Source of the DNA: Acidobacteriota bacterium
GTDB lineage: Bacteria; Acidobacteriota; Blastocatellia; HR10
DNA: 55,315 bases
Assembly (NCBI GenBank): GCA_030550025.1
Contig: JAUQQC010000011.1
Span: 40,428 to 95,742 of the forward strand
Direction of reading: 5' to 3'
The notes beneath the pieces were generated by a model. It did no database searches. It was not told the origin of the DNA and worked only from the letters and a program-made list of their open reading frames with translations. Positions 3,548-55,315 of this stretch are shown one piece after another. The translations under genes and the position numbers were made by a program. How positions within the stretch are numbered: the stretch's first letter is position 1; every line of letters starts with the position of its first letter.

Positions 3548-4743
3548 TCCCCAGACGGAGGCCCCGTCCCCGACACGCGACGAACGCCGATAATCCCATT
3601 AACTTGCGCGGGGCCGGAAGAATCTACGAAGAAAACCTCTCCGGTTACAGGGCTGACAGCGAATCCGGCATTTTGATGGAAGAACCGGGTGACCGGATCT
3701 CCAGCTCTGTTACGGATCGAAGGATCCGCCAAGATTTCTGCCTCCGAGGCAAAGAGCGTGGCCTCTCCCTTCCCCTCTCCGGCATTTCGGATCGCGATGA
3801 TGCCACGGGTGGCCGGATGCCCCGCCGTCCCAAACGTGTTCAGGAGATAGATGACGTCGTCCGGCCCAACATCCACGCCACTGTAACCGACATCCAGAAT
3901 CTCCAAATCCGCCTCGATGTCCGTAGCGGCGACCAGAAGAGAGACCCTTCCCGTCTCGGGATCTACCTCCAGGAGATCATCCGTCGCTTGAGGGCGACCG
4001 CTATTGATGACGACCAGCGTTCGCCGCGATGACCATACGGCGACGTCGTTGAGATCAATATCTTTCCCGATCCCGATGACCTCTTCCAGCTGCGCTTGAG
4101 AGACAAGCTCCGTGGCTGCCGTTCGTCCCCCATCGGGAGCGTGCACATCAATCGTCACGATGCTATCGCCGTAGAAGGCGCCGAACCGGTCGTTCAGCAG
4201 GATGTATGCCGTTGTCCCCAAAACGGCCATCGAGCGGTTCCCTTCGATCGAGGAGACTGGGGAGACTGGCTCAAATGGACGATCGAGACCAGAGATCAGC
4301 GCGACCTCTCCAGTTTGTGGATCAACGCGAAAGAGATAGGCGACTTCAGGGTCCCCACTATCTGTGAGGATGAGGATATGGCCATCACGATCTACATCCA
4401 CAACTTGAGGGGTCATCTGCTGCGGGGCCGGATCCGGACCGTTTTCAGCATCCACCTTGGCCTTAAGCGCCGCTGTATCCGTGACCTTCGTGAGGACCGG
4501 AGGATCCACCGAGACATCGGCGATGAAGATCTCGTTATTCGCCGGATCGGAAAAATCGGTGAAGATCAACCGGCCATCGGGCATCGCGCCCAATCGTCCA
4601 GGGCGCGCTCCCCCCGAGAGCGTTTTCTCCGCGATCTGATTTCCTGATACCGCAAGGCGCACTTTAAGCACGTCAGCTTGTTGCCCCCATAAGGGCGGGC
4701 ATGTGAGTGCGAAGAGGACGATTGAAATCATCCACGTTCTCAT
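3541..4743 (-). CDS. secreted beta-propeller-like protein of unknown function
   Basis: A 400-residue exported protein with a clear signal peptide (residues 1-20, ending PPLWG before QQAD). The mature part repeats strand-turn motifs typical of NHL/SMP-30-like propellers: GRLIFTDFSDPANNEIFIAD near 60, DRDGHILILTDSG near 115, RVDPQTGEVALISG near 140, EVDPETGRVSLLV near 265 and GPDDVIYLLNTFG near 300. No catalytic residues can be assigned. It starts 39 bp downstream of the Oar-like TonB receptor on the same strand, so the two are probably co-transcribed and it may be an envelope partner of the receptor. No specific function is recognised. Confidence 0.75.
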   Translation of the reverse strand: MRTWMISIVLFALTCPPLWGQQADVLKVRLAVSGNQIAEKTLSGGARPGRLGAMPDGRLIFTDFSDPANNEIFIADVSVDPPVLTKVTDTAALKAKVDAENGPDPAPQQMTPQVVDVDRDGHILILTDSGDPEVAYLFRVDPQTGEVALISGLDRPFEPVSPVSSIEGNRSMAVLGTTAYILLNDRFGAFYGDSIVTIDVHAPDGGRTAATELVSQAQLEEVIGIGKDIDLNDVAVWSSRRTLVVINSGRPQATDDLLEVDPETGRVSLLVAATDIEADLEILDVGYSGVDVGPDDVIYLLNTFGTAGHPATRGIIAIRNAGEGKGEATLFASEAEILADPSIRNRAGDPVTRFFHQNAGFAVSPVTGEVFFVDSSGPAQVNGIIGVRRVSGTGPPSGDY

Positions 4744-48581: not shown

Positions 48582-50294
48582 ATGAGGATACCGATGGCGC
48601 TCAGAGCGGTAGCGCTCGGTTTCGTGGTGACTGAGGGGCTCCTCCCACGCGCGTCCAAAGGCGCTGAGTTTCGAGCCCCGGGTGTCGTGAACGTCGTCAG
48701 CCACCGGTGTGTGATCCCCGGATATGACGAACCGAATACGCCACCCAATGTGCCCATCTCGGACGCGCTTCGAGCCGCCCTCACCGACCCCGCCGCCATT
48801 CGCGATGATCGGGTGAATCTGAACCAGACCATCTACGTGCGCTTCTTTGACGGGGATCGCGCGCGCCCTCCGCAAGCGATCGTGATCCTTATGCCGGGAC
48901 CGACCAGTGGGGCGAACGCTCTTCGATTCCTGGCGACGGAGATCGTGCGCCGCTCCGGCGGAGCGGTCGAAGTCTGGGCGCTCGATCGGCGCGCGAACCT
49001 GCTCGAAGACCTCTTCCCGCTCTGGCGCGCGGAGCGGGCGGGAACGACCGAGGCAGCTCTCGAAGCGCTCTCGCATATCACCGAACATCCCGATGGGCGT
49101 GGGGGGTACATCGCCAACCACTATGAGGAAGTCAGCCGTTTCATGAGCGAATGGGGATTGGACGTACACGTCCGCGATGTGAAAGCCGTCGTGGAAAAGG
49201 CAAGAGAGGTCGCGGGCGCACGCATCTTCTTAGGCGGCCATTCGCTCGGCGCGATCCTCGCCCAGGCTTTCGCCGCTTATGATTTCGAGGGCATCCCGGG
49301 GTACAGCCTCATTCACGGCTTGATCCTGCTTGATGGCACGGGGATTCCCGGCATGAGCCCGCTCATCACCGACGAGCAATATCTCGCCGGCCTCAATTCC
49401 CTACGTGCGCCAACGCGCCCGGAAGACGCGCCGTTTGTGCTTCGGCCCTTTGGCCCCTATCACTTCCAGCTTTTGGAGATCGCTGCGCTCTTAGCCCTCG
49501 TGGATCCCGATGGGCCTTCCCCACTGGATCGGTACGCGCCCGAGTTGATCGCCGTGCCGATGACAAACGCCGCTGCTTTGGGCGTGATCCTCGATGACGA
49601 ATTTCAATCCCAACCGCTGGCCCGCTTCTCGATCGGCTTCCTCCGTATACCCCCCAACCACCCGCTTGCGTCTATCGCTACGCGAAGCCGCGATCCATTC
49701 TCTGCAAATCCCAACGGCCTCTACGTCCCGAAAGACTTGGGAGAGACGCGACAGCACTGGGCCGCTGTCCCAAACCTTCACGCCCTGAGCTCCACGTTCG
49801 TTCACGGGCCCGAGCCGTCGGACTTCTCCCGAGTCGCACGACTCCTGCTGACGGGAAGCGGGCGCGGTTTCTCAGATGATGCTCTTGCACGAGAGTTGTT
49901 CCCGGACGCCCCGGAGGCCAATTTCCTCGAATGGTACTTCCCACAGCGACTGTTGCTTGACCTGCTGCGGTTCTCCGATCTGGACGCGACGCGCCTTGCT
50001 CCGAGCATCGTCGCTGCGCTCACCGCGCGCGGCGGGCGCGTCCCAGCGCTTACGGAAAATCGGCGGGTGAACTTGCCGGTGCTCGCCATTCAAGCCCGAC
50101 AAGGCCTCTTCCCACCTCTGGCTGGTTCCCTCCCCTTCACCCGCTATAAGAACAGCACGCGCACGCCGCAGTTCTCTTACAGTCTCTTGCCTAACTCGGC
50201 TCATGGTGACCTCTTGACCGGGACCGATCAGGACGCGCAAGAGCGAACTGTAGCCGACCTCATCGTGAGCTTCGCGATCGGAAACCGGCGATGA
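48582..50294 (+). CDS. secreted alpha/beta-hydrolase-fold protein
   Basis: A 570-residue product with a probable signal peptide ([22 protein letters not shown]). The hydrolase core shows an oxyanion-type strand ([19 protein letters not shown]), the nucleophile elbow GGHSLG with Ser221, a strand [12 protein letters not shown], and a late His in [10 protein letters not shown] near 545 that fits the catalytic triad. A large lid-like insertion (about 255-500) includes [17 protein letters not shown]. It is about twice the size of a plain hydrolase. It may act on lipids or esters; substrate is unknown. The start has GGAGGAGAG upstream. It stands alone before the 557-bp non-coding region. Confidence 0.75.
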
Positions 50295-50501: not shown

Positions 50502-50529
50502 TTGACTTCGCGCGCTTGACCGATATAAT
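50502..50529 (+). promoter_or_regulatory. strong sigma-70-type promoter of the DUF11 leader
   Basis: TTGACT (50502-50507), a 16-bp spacer and a perfect TATAAT (50524-50529). Transcription would start near 50536, giving a leader of about 315 nt before the DUF11 gene. Confidence 0.7.
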
Positions 50530-50620
50530 GAGGGCTCGGATTGCCCGAAAGGCATAGGGCGAGGGGGAAGAACAGAGGGCCTACCGGAGGCTGCCATCAA
50601 TTACTTGGAAAGGACATTGC

Positions 50621-50788
50621 ATGAAGCTGATGAATTCGTCACGAACGAGGAAAGATTTCGCCACCGATGGACATGGATGGGCACCGATCCGTTTCCTCAT
50701 CCGTGTTGATCCGTGTACATCCGCGGCATCACAGGAATCGGCCCTGTGTGATGGCACGCCAGGAGAGAATGCATTGACCAACGGATGA
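50621..50788 (+). CDS. possible 55-codon leader peptide
   Basis: ATG at 50621 with GGAAAGGA 7 nt upstream; stop TGA at 50786-50788 inside the 9-bp leader stem. It is translated through the ACACGGATGA-like inverted repeat, so the peptide sequence is repeat-derived (DGHGWAPIRFLIRVDPCTS). If translated, the ribosome would affect folding of the leader. It may be chance. Confidence 0.25.
   Translation: MKLMNSSRTRKDFATDGHGWAPIRFLIRVDPCTSAASQESALCDGTPGENALTNG
50660..50727. repeat. imperfect inverted repeat of ACACGGATGA-like units
   Basis: The left arm reads GCCACCGATGGACATGGATG and onward as decamer-like units; the right arm (50696-50727) carries the complementary units (CATCCGTGTTGATCCGTGTA, then CATCCGCGGC). 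It forms a long imperfect hairpin with a 10-11 bp internal period. It lies in the transcribed leader. Confidence 0.6.
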
Positions 50789-50801
50789 AAGGAGCCAACT
50801 G

Positions 50802-50876
50802 ATGGGTGATCCGTTGGAACCCTCCATCTGTTGGGGGGTTATTTTTTCACTATGGAAGGCCAGAACATTCGCTTGA
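50802..50876 (+). CDS. possible 24-codon leader ORF crossing the terminator
   Basis: ATG at 50802 with a strong AAAGGAG site 7 nt upstream (50788-50794). Its frame runs through the terminator hairpin and T-run and stops at 50874-50876, past the ATG of the DUF11 gene (different frame). Ribosomes translating it would cover the terminator and then reinitiate at 50852, which lacks its own good ribosome site. Confidence 0.35.
   Translation: MGDPLEPSICWGVIFSLWKARTFA
50818..50847 (+). terminator. intrinsic terminator 5 nt before the DUF11 gene
   Basis: AACCCTCC, loop atctgtt, GGGGGGTT (one G-U pair), then ATTTTTT. It ends 5 nt before the ATG at 50852, a position expected for attenuation. Confidence 0.7.
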
Positions 50877-53800
50877 ATCGAAGAGGGACTCGGTTGATTT
50901 ATTGGGGCGTGGGCCTGCTGCTGGCCCTGGGGTTACTGTGGACCCCGAAAACGGTTTCCGTTCAGTCAAGCCCGGTGCCGCAGGTCACGCTCACGGCGCC
51001 TGCCGAAGCGCTCATCGGCGAAGATTTCACCTTCACGGTGAAATTCAAAAACGCCAGTCCCAATCCAGGCGACATCGGCTATGGGCCGTTCATTGACCTG
51101 GTGCTCGATGCCGGCGGCGCGAATATCACCAAGCCGCCACAGACACCACCGTGCGCCTGCGACGGCATCACGTTCGTGAAAGCCGAAATGGTCGGCGTGG
51201 TCGGCGGCCCTGTTTCGCTGAATAGCTTCCCGGTTCTTGCTCCCTGTAGCCCGATGCCTCCAAATGTGTCGCTACCGCATCCGTTTGCGTCAAGCGGCAT
51301 CGGACCTGTCGCAGTTCCCGCGGGCGCACAACTCATCACGCTGGAGCTTCCTTTCGGGAGTTTCGATCCCACGCAGCCAGAGATTGAAGTTCAGGTCACC
51401 GCTCATGTGAGCAACCTCGCCGACGCCGGCACACCGCTCAAGATTTTCGCTCGCGGCGGCTTTCGCTATGGCACAGACCCGCTGGATAATCCGAGCACTG
51501 ACCCTCCGATTCTGAGCGATACGACGCCGAGCACCCAATGGACAGCCAATGCTCAGACGACCCCGACCGTCCTCACGATCAAGAAAGAGTACCTCGGTCC
51601 TGAAGACGAGACCGCCACCGGCCCAAACTTCACCGGGTTCTATCCCCTCCAGTACCGAATCACCGTGGACATCGCCAACGGCCAAGCGGTGAGCAACGTC
51701 ACGGTGACCGATTGCTTCCCCAACAACCTGGCCTTCCAGAGCGTCGTCTCGGTTAGTCCGTCCGCTCCGGCGCCTACGGTGACAACGCCTCCCGCCGGCG
51801 TGCCCAATAATCCACCCAACAACTGCTTGACCGTGACATGGCCTTCACTCACCGGCGCGTCAGGCCCCGATGCCGCGGTCGTCTTCGAATTCTTCATCCC
51901 GGAAAAAGACGCCAACGGCAATCCCGTCCTTCCGCCCAATTGCCAGCCCGTTCAATCCGTCAACGATGTCAAAGCCGAAGGCGATTGGACGCCGACGGAC
52001 CCCTGCGATGCATCGCCGGCGCACGTCGTGAGCGACATCACGTCCAGCGACCACATCCTCAACGACAAATGCATCGCCATTCAAAAGAAGGTCGCCGTAT
52101 TTCAAGACACCGGCGCTCCCGGCCCCACACCGGGAGACGTTCTTCAGTACACGCTCAGCTTCCAGATCTCCGACTTCAAGACGTTCGGGAAACTGGAAGT
52201 TCGAGACTGGCTCCCCGACGGTCAACAGTTTCTGCCGATGCCCGCGCCGACCCTCACGGTGACGGATCAGTTCGGCGCCGTCAGCGGACCTTTCATTCCC
52301 CTTTTGGATTTATCTGTCACTCTGGATCCGCACTCCACCTGCCAGGGAATTAAGGGCACGACCAATCTCGTCTTCAACGTTTCCCAGAAGATGACCGGCC
52401 TGTTTCCCTCGAACCCCAGACACCTGGCGGGAATTCTGACCGGCGGCTGGGCGACGACGCCGACTTCTTCTGTTCCGGCCACGGGTCAAATCGTCTTTTA
52501 CGCACGGATACAGGATCAATTCTCCTTCCCCCAAAACCATCCCGGCGACCGGTTCGTGGACAAGGACGATCCGCTCGCCAATTGCGTGATGATTCGCGGC
52601 GAGGTCTTCACCAATGTCAATCCTCCTCAGCTTCCAACGCCGACGGGCGTGACGGCTCAAGACGACAGCAGGACTCTCACGGCCATCGTGACGGACTTCA
52701 TCAAGAAGACTGTCTATGCCGTGAAGCGCGCCGGTCAGGAAATTTGCGGGCCGAATACATCGCCCTGTCCCGCCAAGCCGCAGGTGACGCCCGGCGACGA
52801 AGTCACCTTCCGCATTGAGAAAGTCATCCCTTCGAGTGACGCCGAAAACCTCACGATCCAGGATTGGCTGCCGTTGCCGATCTTCGATGTGGCTGATCCC
52901 GACGCCAATGGGATGGCCGGCCCGGCGTGGAGCTTCACCAGCGCGGCCTGCGGCATCCCCACGCCCGGTCAAGCGTGCCTTGGGCCGACGAATTCGCTCA
53001 CGGTGAGCCCGTCGTTCGCGGCCAATTCGACGACAAATAGCCTCACCTTCAACTACGGAACCTTCAACGATCCGACCAACACGCCTCGAAAGATAGACCT
53101 CCTGCTCACGGTCACGGCGACGAATGATCCTTTTGCCGACGGCCTCTTCCTGACCAACCAGGCGCAAGAGTGCGAGAAGAACACGTTCAACATGACGTTC
53201 TGCCAGGTCGCAATTGCGCAAGTCCAGATGGCCGAGCCGAAGCTCAGAATCATCAAAGGAGTTGTCGCCAGCGATAATCCCAATGCGATCTTCTCTCCTG
53301 CTGCGCCTCCGTCGGGAACATTCACACCGCCCGGCGGCTCCTGCCCGCGCTTCAGCGGGACGATCAATTCGTCCAACATCGGATCGCTCAATTTGAACAG
53401 CAATATCTCCGGCGTGGACGCCAACGACAAAGTGACCTTCGCCATCGTCGTCGAGAATCAAGGCTCTTCGCCTAACGGCGTCTTCGATGTGAAGATTCGG
53501 GACATCTTCCCGCTCGGTCCGACGGATCTGCCGTCGTGCTTCGTTCCTGACTTCAGCACGCTCTGCGTCACCGATGGCACGGGCGCTCCTATTCCGTTCG
53601 CCGTGGGTCCGGGCGGATTTGGTTCCGTCATCATCGAACTCACCGACCCAGGCCCGACGATGGGCGCGCTCGGTCCCTTCAATCCTGCGAACGGAAAGAA
53701 CATTGCCGTACTCACCTTCGACGCCATGCTTCTCAGCGACATCAAATCGGGCTGCTGCGATAACCGCGCCAGGCTGGAGAACTACTCGAATACCGAAGGC

Positions 53801-55315
53801 GGACCGAACTTCGTCGCGGCGGGCTTTGGCGGGCCGTTTGAAGATACGGCTCAGGCCTGCGTCGGTCCGAGGCCGTTCGCCAAGTGCATCCAGACGACTT
53901 CTGAAGTTCACACGATCCCGCAATCGGCTTCTCAAGGCGGCACGGTGGATGCGGCCATCGGCGAGATCGTCCGCTACCGGTTGATCACGGTCATTCCTGA
54001 AGGTACGACGCCGAACTTCCAGATCCAGGACCTGCTGCCGCCGGGCTTGACCTACCTGCCGGGCACGGCCCGCGTGCTTTTTGTGGCCGATAGCCCTGTC
54101 ACAAGCGGCAATACGATATGGCCGACGGTTCCGGGACCGAATCCGCCGCAGTGCCCGGGATCGCCAACGCCTACCAGTAACCTGCTGGAGGGTGGGGGAC
54201 CCTTTACTCCTGGCGCTGGAGTAGACCCGATCTTCTTCGTCGGACCACAAGCCTTGCCCATCACAAACAACGACAACGACGCGAACCTCGAATTCGCCAT
54301 CATCGAGTTCAACGCGCTGGTGGACAATATCGCCGGCAATCAAAGCAGCACCACCTTGCCCAATCAGTTCCAGGTGCGATTTACAAACGATGCAGGGAAC
54401 CCGTTCGCAAGCAATTCCGGCGCGGTCAATGTCCACGTCGTTGAACCGAATCTCACGCTGACCAAGAGCGTCTCCCCGGCGGCAGTCGTGCCGGGTGGAC
54501 CGCCGGTCACCTATACCGTTACCATCGCCAACACCGGCACCGCCGATGCGTTTGACATCGTCTTCACCGATACTTTGCCACCCGGCCTTACCGTGGTCGC
54601 AGGCTCGCTCACGCTTCCAGCGGGCTGCACCGGAAGCGCCACAGGCCAAAACGTCAGCGTGACCTGCCCGCAGTTGGATGATGGAACGGCGATTCAGATC
54701 ACATATCAGGCGACTGTCCCGGCAACGGTATCGTGTCCGACAACCCTGACGAATCAGGCCACGGTCACCTGGACGAGTCTGCCGGGACCCAACGGCACGA
54801 CGTCCAATCCTACCGGTTCGAGCACGCCGGGCGCGTCAGGTGCGATCAACGGCGAGCGCAATGGCTCCAGCGCCTTCCCGCCCAGTCCACCGAATTCGCC
54901 CGATCCACCCAACAAGTACCATGCGACGGCCTCGGCAGCGCTTACGGTGAATTGTCCGCCGTGCGTGGATCCGTCTTCGCTGCCCAGCATGGTCGCGTGG
55001 TGGCCGATGGATGAGCCGAATGGATCCGCCGTTGTGAATGATCTTGCAAGCGTCAACAACCAGGGCACGCCCACGCCCGGAAGCCCGCTCGGAGCCGCCA
55101 ACGCTCCGAACGCGGTCGCCGGGCAGGTCGGCGGAGCCATCCGGTTTAATCCGAACTTGCAACCGAACGGTCCTCATCTGACAGTTCCGGATCACGCCGA
55201 GCTCAACTTCGGAACAGGCGGTTTCTCCATTGACGCTTGGGTCTATGCGCCCCCGTCTCCACCAACGGCCCTGTTCCTCTATCCGATTGTGGATAAGCTC
55301 GTCGTTCAGTTGCTG
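50852..55315 (+). CDS. giant DUF11/LamG surface protein (partial, 3' end beyond window)
   Basis: The frame is open from the ATG at 50852 to the window end: 1488 residues without stop. The N-terminus has a basic region and signal (RLIYWGVGLLLALGLLWTP). At least six DUF11-like modules follow, roughly at residues 241, 406, 617, 795, 1008 and 1198. The last is canonical (LTLTKSVSPAAVVPGGPPVT, then FTDTLPPGLTVVAGSLTLPA). A LamG/concanavalin-like domain begins near 1380 (MVAWWPMDEPNGSAVVNDLA) and includes HLTVPDHAELNFGTGGFSID, cut by the window edge. Such proteins are long exported stalks or adhesins, often with C-terminal sorting signals. Upstream lies the structured leader. The TTG at 50831 is an alternative start. 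Confidence 0.85.
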   Translation, partial: MEGQNIRLNRRGTRLIYWGVGLLLALGLLWTPKTVSVQSSPVPQVTLTAPAEALIGEDFTFTVKFKNASPNPGDIGYGPFIDLVLDAGGANITKPPQTPPCACDGITFVKAEMVGVVGGPVSLNSFPVLAPCSPMPPNVSLPHPFASSGIGPVAVPAGAQLITLELPFGSFDPTQPEIEVQVTAHVSNLADAGTPLKIFARGGFRYGTDPLDNPSTDPPILSDTTPSTQWTANAQTTPTVLTIKKEYLGPEDETATGPNFTGFYPLQYRITVDIANGQAVSNVTVTDCFPNNLAFQSVVSVSPSAPAPTVTTPPAGVPNNPPNNCLTVTWPSLTGASGPDAAVVFEFFIPEKDANGNPVLPPNCQPVQSVNDVKAEGDWTPTDPCDASPAHVVSDITSSDHILNDKCIAIQKKVAVFQDTGAPGPTPGDVLQYTLSFQISDFKTFGKLEVRDWLPDGQQFLPMPAPTLTVTDQFGAVSGPFIPLLDLSVTLDPHSTCQGIKGTTNLVFNVSQKMTGLFPSNPRHLAGILTGGWATTPTSSVPATGQIVFYARIQDQFSFPQNHPGDRFVDKDDPLANCVMIRGEVFTNVNPPQLPTPTGVTAQDDSRTLTAIVTDFIKKTVYAVKRAGQEICGPNTSPCPAKPQVTPGDEVTFRIEKVIPSSDAENLTIQDWLPLPIFDVADPDANGMAGPAWSFTSAACGIPTPGQACLGPTNSLTVSPSFAANSTTNSLTFNYGTFNDPTNTPRKIDLLLTVTATNDPFADGLFLTNQAQECEKNTFNMTFCQVAIAQVQMAEPKLRIIKGVVASDNPNAIFSPAAPPSGTFTPPGGSCPRFSGTINSSNIGSLNLNSNISGVDANDKVTFAIVVENQGSSPNGVFDVKIRDIFPLGPTDLPSCFVPDFSTLCVTDGTGAPIPFAVGPGGFGSVIIELTDPGPTMGALGPFNPANGKNIAVLTFDAMLLSDIKSGCCDNRARLENYSNTEGGPNFVAAGFGGPFEDTAQACVGPRPFAKCIQTTSEVHTIPQSASQGGTVDAAIGEIVRYRLITVIPEGTTPNFQIQDLLPPGLTYLPGTARVLFVADSPVTSGNTIWPTVPGPNPPQCPGSPTPTSNLLEGGGPFTPGAGVDPIFFVGPQALPITNNDNDANLEFAIIEFNALVDNIAGNQSSTTLPNQFQVRFTNDAGNPFASNSGAVNVHVVEPNLTLTKSVSPAAVVPGGPPVTYTVTIANTGTADAFDIVFTDTLPPGLTVVAGSLTLPAGCTGSATGQNVSVTCPQLDDGTAIQITYQATVPATVSCPTTLTNQATVTWTSLPGPNGTTSNPTGSSTPGASGAINGERNGSSAFPPSPPNSPDPPNKYHATASAALTVNCPPCVDPSSLPSMVAWWPMDEPNGSAVVNDLASVNNQGTPTPGSPLGAANAPNAVAGQVGGAIRFNPNLQPNGPHLTVPDHAELNFGTGGFSIDAWVYAPPSPPTALFLYPIVDKLVVQLL

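Follow-up and report, generated by a model that had tools for sequence, protein, structure and literature searches.

A DUF11 surface-protein gene of an Acidobacteriota bacterium behind a leader apparently built from dispersed palindromic repeats

Ahead of a DUF11 surface-protein gene in an Acidobacteriota bacterium (class Blastocatellia, assembly GCA_030550025.1), positions 50600-50845 of the analysed stretch of contig JAUQQC010000011.1 (55,315 nucleotides, hereafter the window) are, judged by comparison with related genomes, an array of dispersed repeats and not a dedicated regulatory RNA. The gene and its array were most likely acquired together by horizontal transfer and placed behind a native promoter, and it seems probable that the repeat-derived leader works as a passive, constitutive damper of DUF11 through termination combined with poor initiation. 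The genomes compared are designated G000 (the genome of the window), G002 and G003 (same genus), G005 (same family, other genus) and G006 and G008 (same order). The features of the locus are the following:

48582..50294, + strand: upstream gene, 570 aa, vertically inherited, marker of the native locus
50502..50529, + strand: sigma-70-type promoter TTGACT-N16-TATAAT, 11/12 consensus, conserved in G003
50502..50566, + strand: native stretch with the promoter and the initial ~30 transcribed nt, common to G003
50600..50657, + strand: constant hairpin element, degenerate copy 1, placed by alignment, containing the start of small ORF 1
50621..50788, + strand: small ORF 1, 55 codons, repeat-derived
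50658..50727, + strand: palindromic cassette P1 (ATCCGTG type); the G005 array is arranged alike
50728..50777, + strand: constant hairpin element, copy 2, placed by two alignments
50778..50845, + strand: palindromic cassette P3, with dispersed copies in G000, G005, G006 and G008, adjoining the DUF11 start
50778-50792 (A), 50795-50804 (B), 50809-50817 (B') and 50820-50834 (A'), + strand: arms of P3, from pair counts
50802..50876, + strand: small ORF 2, 24 codons, AAAGGAG upstream
50818..50847, + strand: terminator-like hairpin (50818-50840) and U6 tract (50842-50847), derived in the window copy
50852..55315, + strand: DUF11 surface-protein gene, 1488 aa, open at the contig end

Provenance of the locus

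The protein of the upstream gene, for which no Pfam family match was obtained, is 85 and 84% identical to its counterparts in G002 and G003, respectively, and 64% identical to that of G005. For this gene dS to same-genus species is 0.45-0.67 and dS to G005 is 2.45 (near saturation), whereas dS to G005 for DUF11 amounts to 0.29. One ortholog of DUF11 was found among 39 relatives, in G005, and its protein is 90% identical. The homology with G005 begins inside the array at ~50621 and not earlier, and the promoter lies outside it; conversely, the stretch 50502..50566 is 74% identical over 65 nt to G003, which keeps the promoter as TTGACT-N16-TATAAT, the version of G002 being degenerate. The joint arrival of gene and array is supported by the low dS of DUF11, by the homology with G005 starting within the array and by the promoter shared with G003. 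The donor would have been another lineage of the same order, or a recent donor in common, with the array attached to the gene. DUF11 shows a dN/dS of 0.22, evidencing constraint (purifying selection), so at least one lineage must express the gene at times.

The near-consensus promoter reported in the initial annotation is present and, with 11 of 12 positions, it is the sole match of at least 11/12 in the window when both strands are scanned; in one-strand Markov simulations of the intergenic stretch a match of this quality arose by chance in 0.25% of the runs. In G003 (L095) a different sequence follows the conserved promoter, and then a gene starting MNPNRLRTAKAMWRAILLLTIWAGIRTAWALDPRKALTQYA, as read by eye; because of this arrangement, the native target of the promoter is probably another gene.

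Architecture and distribution of the repeats

The constant element (~50 nt) has the form ATTTTCANAGGAATCGCCCATG-NGC-nnnn-GCN-CGCCACGAAGGATGAAAAT, and its inner hairpin covaries, with 18 double-change cells where shuffles give 6.0 +/- 1.8, none of 500 shuffles reaching 18. Of the 147 genomes in the class sample, 5 were found to contain it, each from the same order of Blastocatellia, and in G006 and others it alternates with many unrelated palindromic cassettes; the constant-element arrays are possibly an order-wide repeat system. With the leader as query, parts of the cassette 50778-50845 were recovered elsewhere in the own genome at 85% identity. A P3 consensus query matched 5 places in G000, ~25 in G005, about a dozen in G006 (weaker matches) and 1 in G008, and gave no match in four same-genus genomes or in 29 other genomes of the class. 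These copy numbers are BLAST counts and the gene calls used below come from a simple codon-usage caller. For the other own-genome copies the flanks lack synteny in congeners, and hence the comparison yielded no empty site.

In arrays L127-L140 (G006), L141-L142 (G008) and L042-L062 (G005) the constant element, with an SD-like (Shine-Dalgarno) AGGA and an ATG, is interspersed with numerous unrelated palindromes, always in one orientation; G006 has over 59 scored matches (207 candidates). A coding role for the arrays was considered, given that the frame of the ATG is the most open one, and was dropped because the spacing between units is not divisible by three.

Of the 26 G005 arrays for which a downstream gene was called, 24 are oriented toward it; the bias is weak in G006 (13/21). 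In nine P3 copies of G005 the repeat has an SD at its 3' end and stops 2-10 nt short of a start codon, and the genes behind P3 copies in this genome are mutually unrelated (sulfatase, serine hydrolase, SCO1-like, AhpC/TSA, peptidase M19, DUF11 and others). By eye, eight of the nine genes abutting P3 (L043, L047, L048, L053, L054 and L056 among the loci) encode an N-terminal signal-like or membrane segment. In G000 and G006 P3 copies also precede [NiFe]-hydrogenase and maturation genes, including the large subunit, FlpD, HycI and HypE-like proteins (L020:1517-1608, L067:1333-1419 and 4299-4374, and L072). The stretch around the hydrogenase-linked copy of G000 has no match in its congeners, hinting that repeats and hydrogenase genes were transferred horizontally together.

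Folding of the P3 cassette

The intrinsic terminator described before the DUF11 ATG corresponds to a terminator-like hairpin (50818-50840) of 9 pairs and -13.7 kcal/mol followed by an A and T6; the last T is separated from ATG 50852 by 4 nt. In 23 other P3 copies the same region reaches 0 to -6.1 kcal/mol, so that the window hairpin is the strongest of 24. Five substitutions separate it from its relatives; the four that fall in the stem all add stability to the hairpin while disrupting the older A:A' pairing, one pair having arisen via a double change. Columns 98/117 form a C-G pair in the window and C.A in the other 23 copies. The P3 cassette also occupies the corresponding position before the G005 ortholog of DUF11, where it carries an SD but no terminator: its end reads GGGAGATTATTTTCCGAGGGAGGTCACAATG, SD included, in G005 versus GGGGGGTTATTTTTTCACTATG in the window, where 9 nt and the SD are lost. 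By parsimony with the other SD-bearing copies, this 9-nt difference would be a deletion in the window lineage.

It could be argued that the end of the repeat simply drifted to a terminator-like shape, with no effect and no selection, DUF11 being transcribed from an unseen promoter or little expressed. The repeat copies are indeed variable in sequence, the substitution density in the hairpin (0.26) is near that of the neighbouring repeat parts (0.18-0.20), and ATG 50852 lacks an SD. However, the uniform direction of the four stem changes, the U6 tract adjoining the hairpin and the purifying selection on DUF11 make neutral decay fairly unlikely. Five random substitutions reached the energy of the window hairpin in 0.05-0.19% of the simulations, a post hoc figure as the hairpin was chosen for its strength.

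The competing structures named in the initial annotation are recognizable within the cassette. All positions of the 9-bp stem (50778-50786/50809-50817) are complementary, and this stem is compatible with the terminator. The pairing 50795-50805/50824-50834, as read from the sequence, does form 10 of 11 pairs, but the terminator competes most strongly with a different one, the 15-nt arm pair 50778-50792/50820-50834. In the old fold A pairs with A' and B with B', and the flanks extend the structure; in the new fold A pairs with B' next to the terminator. For 50727-50848 the old repeat fold is favoured by 3.4 kcal/mol (-44.7 vs -41.3 kcal/mol for the terminator fold), and the terminator stem takes an equilibrium share of ~2%; for 50778-50848 alone, with the flanks omitted, its share is 83%. 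As the U-tract that extends the old fold would be unavailable during transcription, the terminator is expected to be favoured at the moment of decision, and the dominance of the hairpin without flanks presumably represents the state adopted at that stage. The older, flank-extended repeat fold would then be the competing read-through conformation.

Neither stem covaries over the 24 homologous copies: the terminator stem is paired in 76.2% versus 76.4% in shuffles, and the earlier-named competing stem in 84.5% versus 84.4%. The anticipated conservation of the stems in homologs thus failed, as illustrated also by the leader of DUF11 in G005, with its SD and no terminator, and the pair counts rule out a conserved two-stem regulator. 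Terminator and competing pairings derive from the symmetry of the dispersed palindromic repeat and its four arms. Rfam covariance models retrieved no family at the gathering score on the leader, in agreement with the earlier statement that no riboswitch was recognizable, and their silence discards a riboswitch or other known RNA family.

An independent small RNA of ~310 nt (50536 to 50847), unrelated to DUF11, had been offered as an equally simple reading, and promoter and terminator-like site do bracket such a stretch. Nevertheless, only ~65 nt from the promoter are conserved in G003, the remainder being imported repeat, no Rfam family matches it and the folding of the leader as a whole is not unusually stable (z -1.7). 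This reading is less likely than had been supposed because the array came with the gene and abuts the DUF11 start, and it is considered highly improbable.

Small open reading frames and the proposed mode of action

Both small ORFs of the leader were confirmed. The second (ATG 50802) crosses the terminator and ends just past the DUF11 start, as initially described; its stop TGA overlaps the TTG at 50873 of the DUF11 frame (TTGA), an overlap also seen in G005, where frame and stop are the same despite the 9-nt indel. TTG 50873 is an alternative to ATG 50852 as DUF11 start. A start at this TTG gives a typical signal peptide (MNRRGTRLIYWGVGLLLALGLLW).

According to the damper reading preferred here, RNA polymerase starting near 50536 would mostly stop near 50847, and the fraction reading through would produce DUF11 mRNA with poor initiation at ATG 50852. 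Alternatively, translation of DUF11 from the read-through mRNA may be coupled to that of the 24-codon ORF through the TTGA overlap: a ribosome on this ORF could disrupt the hairpin and finish at the overlap with the possible DUF11 start.

A true attenuator would go further, with translation of the 24-codon ORF choosing between the terminator (with A:B') and the repeat fold (A:A' plus B:B'), coupling to DUF11 at TTGA and a response of DUF11 to a translation or growth signal. The two exclusive folds of similar energy, the AAAGGAG ahead of an ORF that spans the terminator and keeps frame and stop in G005, and the ATGA overlap by which the same ORF ends at the gene start in several other P3 copies are consistent with this possibility, and the layout (promoter, small ORF, terminator, exclusive alternative fold before the gene) resembles that of trp/phe-type leader-peptide attenuators. 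Unlike these, it has no control-codon run, conservation or covariation, and the ortholog lacks the terminator. Moreover, the sequence of the ORF comes from the repeat and shows no obvious control-codon run, and P3 copies differ in the frame of the ORF with respect to the gene (~5 of 10 start-adjacent copies share one frame, too weak a bias to be used). An attenuator at this locus is hence deemed quite unlikely. A broader proposal, in which the SD-delivering repeat became a working bistable attenuator of the transferred gene and the constant-hairpin arrays, taken together, form a family of gene-directed leaders within the order, is likewise doubtful.

The regulatory leader of the initial annotation is thus retained in part: the conserved promoter, the unusually strong hairpin and two folds close in energy are there, but a conserved regulatory device found no support, nor did phase-like control. 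The passive damper is the reading that is carried forward.

Relation to known repeats

Modular, palindromic, dispersed and strand-oriented intergenic arrays are known from Streptococcus pneumoniae, namely BOX (boxA-boxB(n)-boxC), RUP and SPRITE; these are predicted to form RNA stem-loops, SPRITE is terminator-like, and BOX contains ORFs and can affect neighbouring genes (PMC3049150). The present arrays share with BOX the dispersal in many copies, the modularity and the single strand orientation per array. They differ in their unrelated sequence and in the constant, covarying element that alternates with many unrelated cassettes, and were not filed as BOX because the phylum differs and the likeness is architectural only. 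Their placement differs too: the arrays of G005 precede gene starts, whereas pneumococcal repeats are over-represented between convergent genes (PMC3049150).

MITEs (Correia, ERIC and the Rickettsia palindromic elements, among others) are short and non-coding with inverted ends, the Rickettsia elements lying in frame within genes (PMC10969869). The present arrays share with them a modular, palindromic and dispersed character, and their units are likewise short and non-coding. Inverted ends (ATTTTC/GAAAAT) were seen in the array elements. In a Verrucomicrobiia MAG (JAHCLO010000010.1, L077:4750-4840) a P3-like palindrome lies in frame within hypF, adding ~27 residues, much like the Rickettsia elements. 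In contrast to MITEs, no promoter was found within the element.

The palindromes resemble REP/BIME in being dispersed and arranged in mosaics, but are longer and four-armed. REP sequences are defined by a GTAG or CGTC tag at one end (PMC3733652), and by eye neither tag occurs in the consensus of either element. A RAYT gene (Y1_Tnp, PF01797) was not matched in G000 or G005, which rules out RAYT-driven REP for these two genomes; PF01797 matches exist in G006 and G008.

Implications

What seemed a dedicated regulatory leader can be explained by repeat symmetry plus recent change, which calls for caution when attenuators are called from a single sequence. The locus offers a traceable case in which transfer, followed by five substitutions and one deletion, would have turned an SD-supplying repeat end into a terminator-like signal. 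The array family is apparently undescribed: a literature search by sequence string and topic found no paper on it, it has no Rfam match, and among the 147 class genomes sampled it was restricted to one order. The family is modular, and in one genome (G005) it points at genes and supplies their SD.
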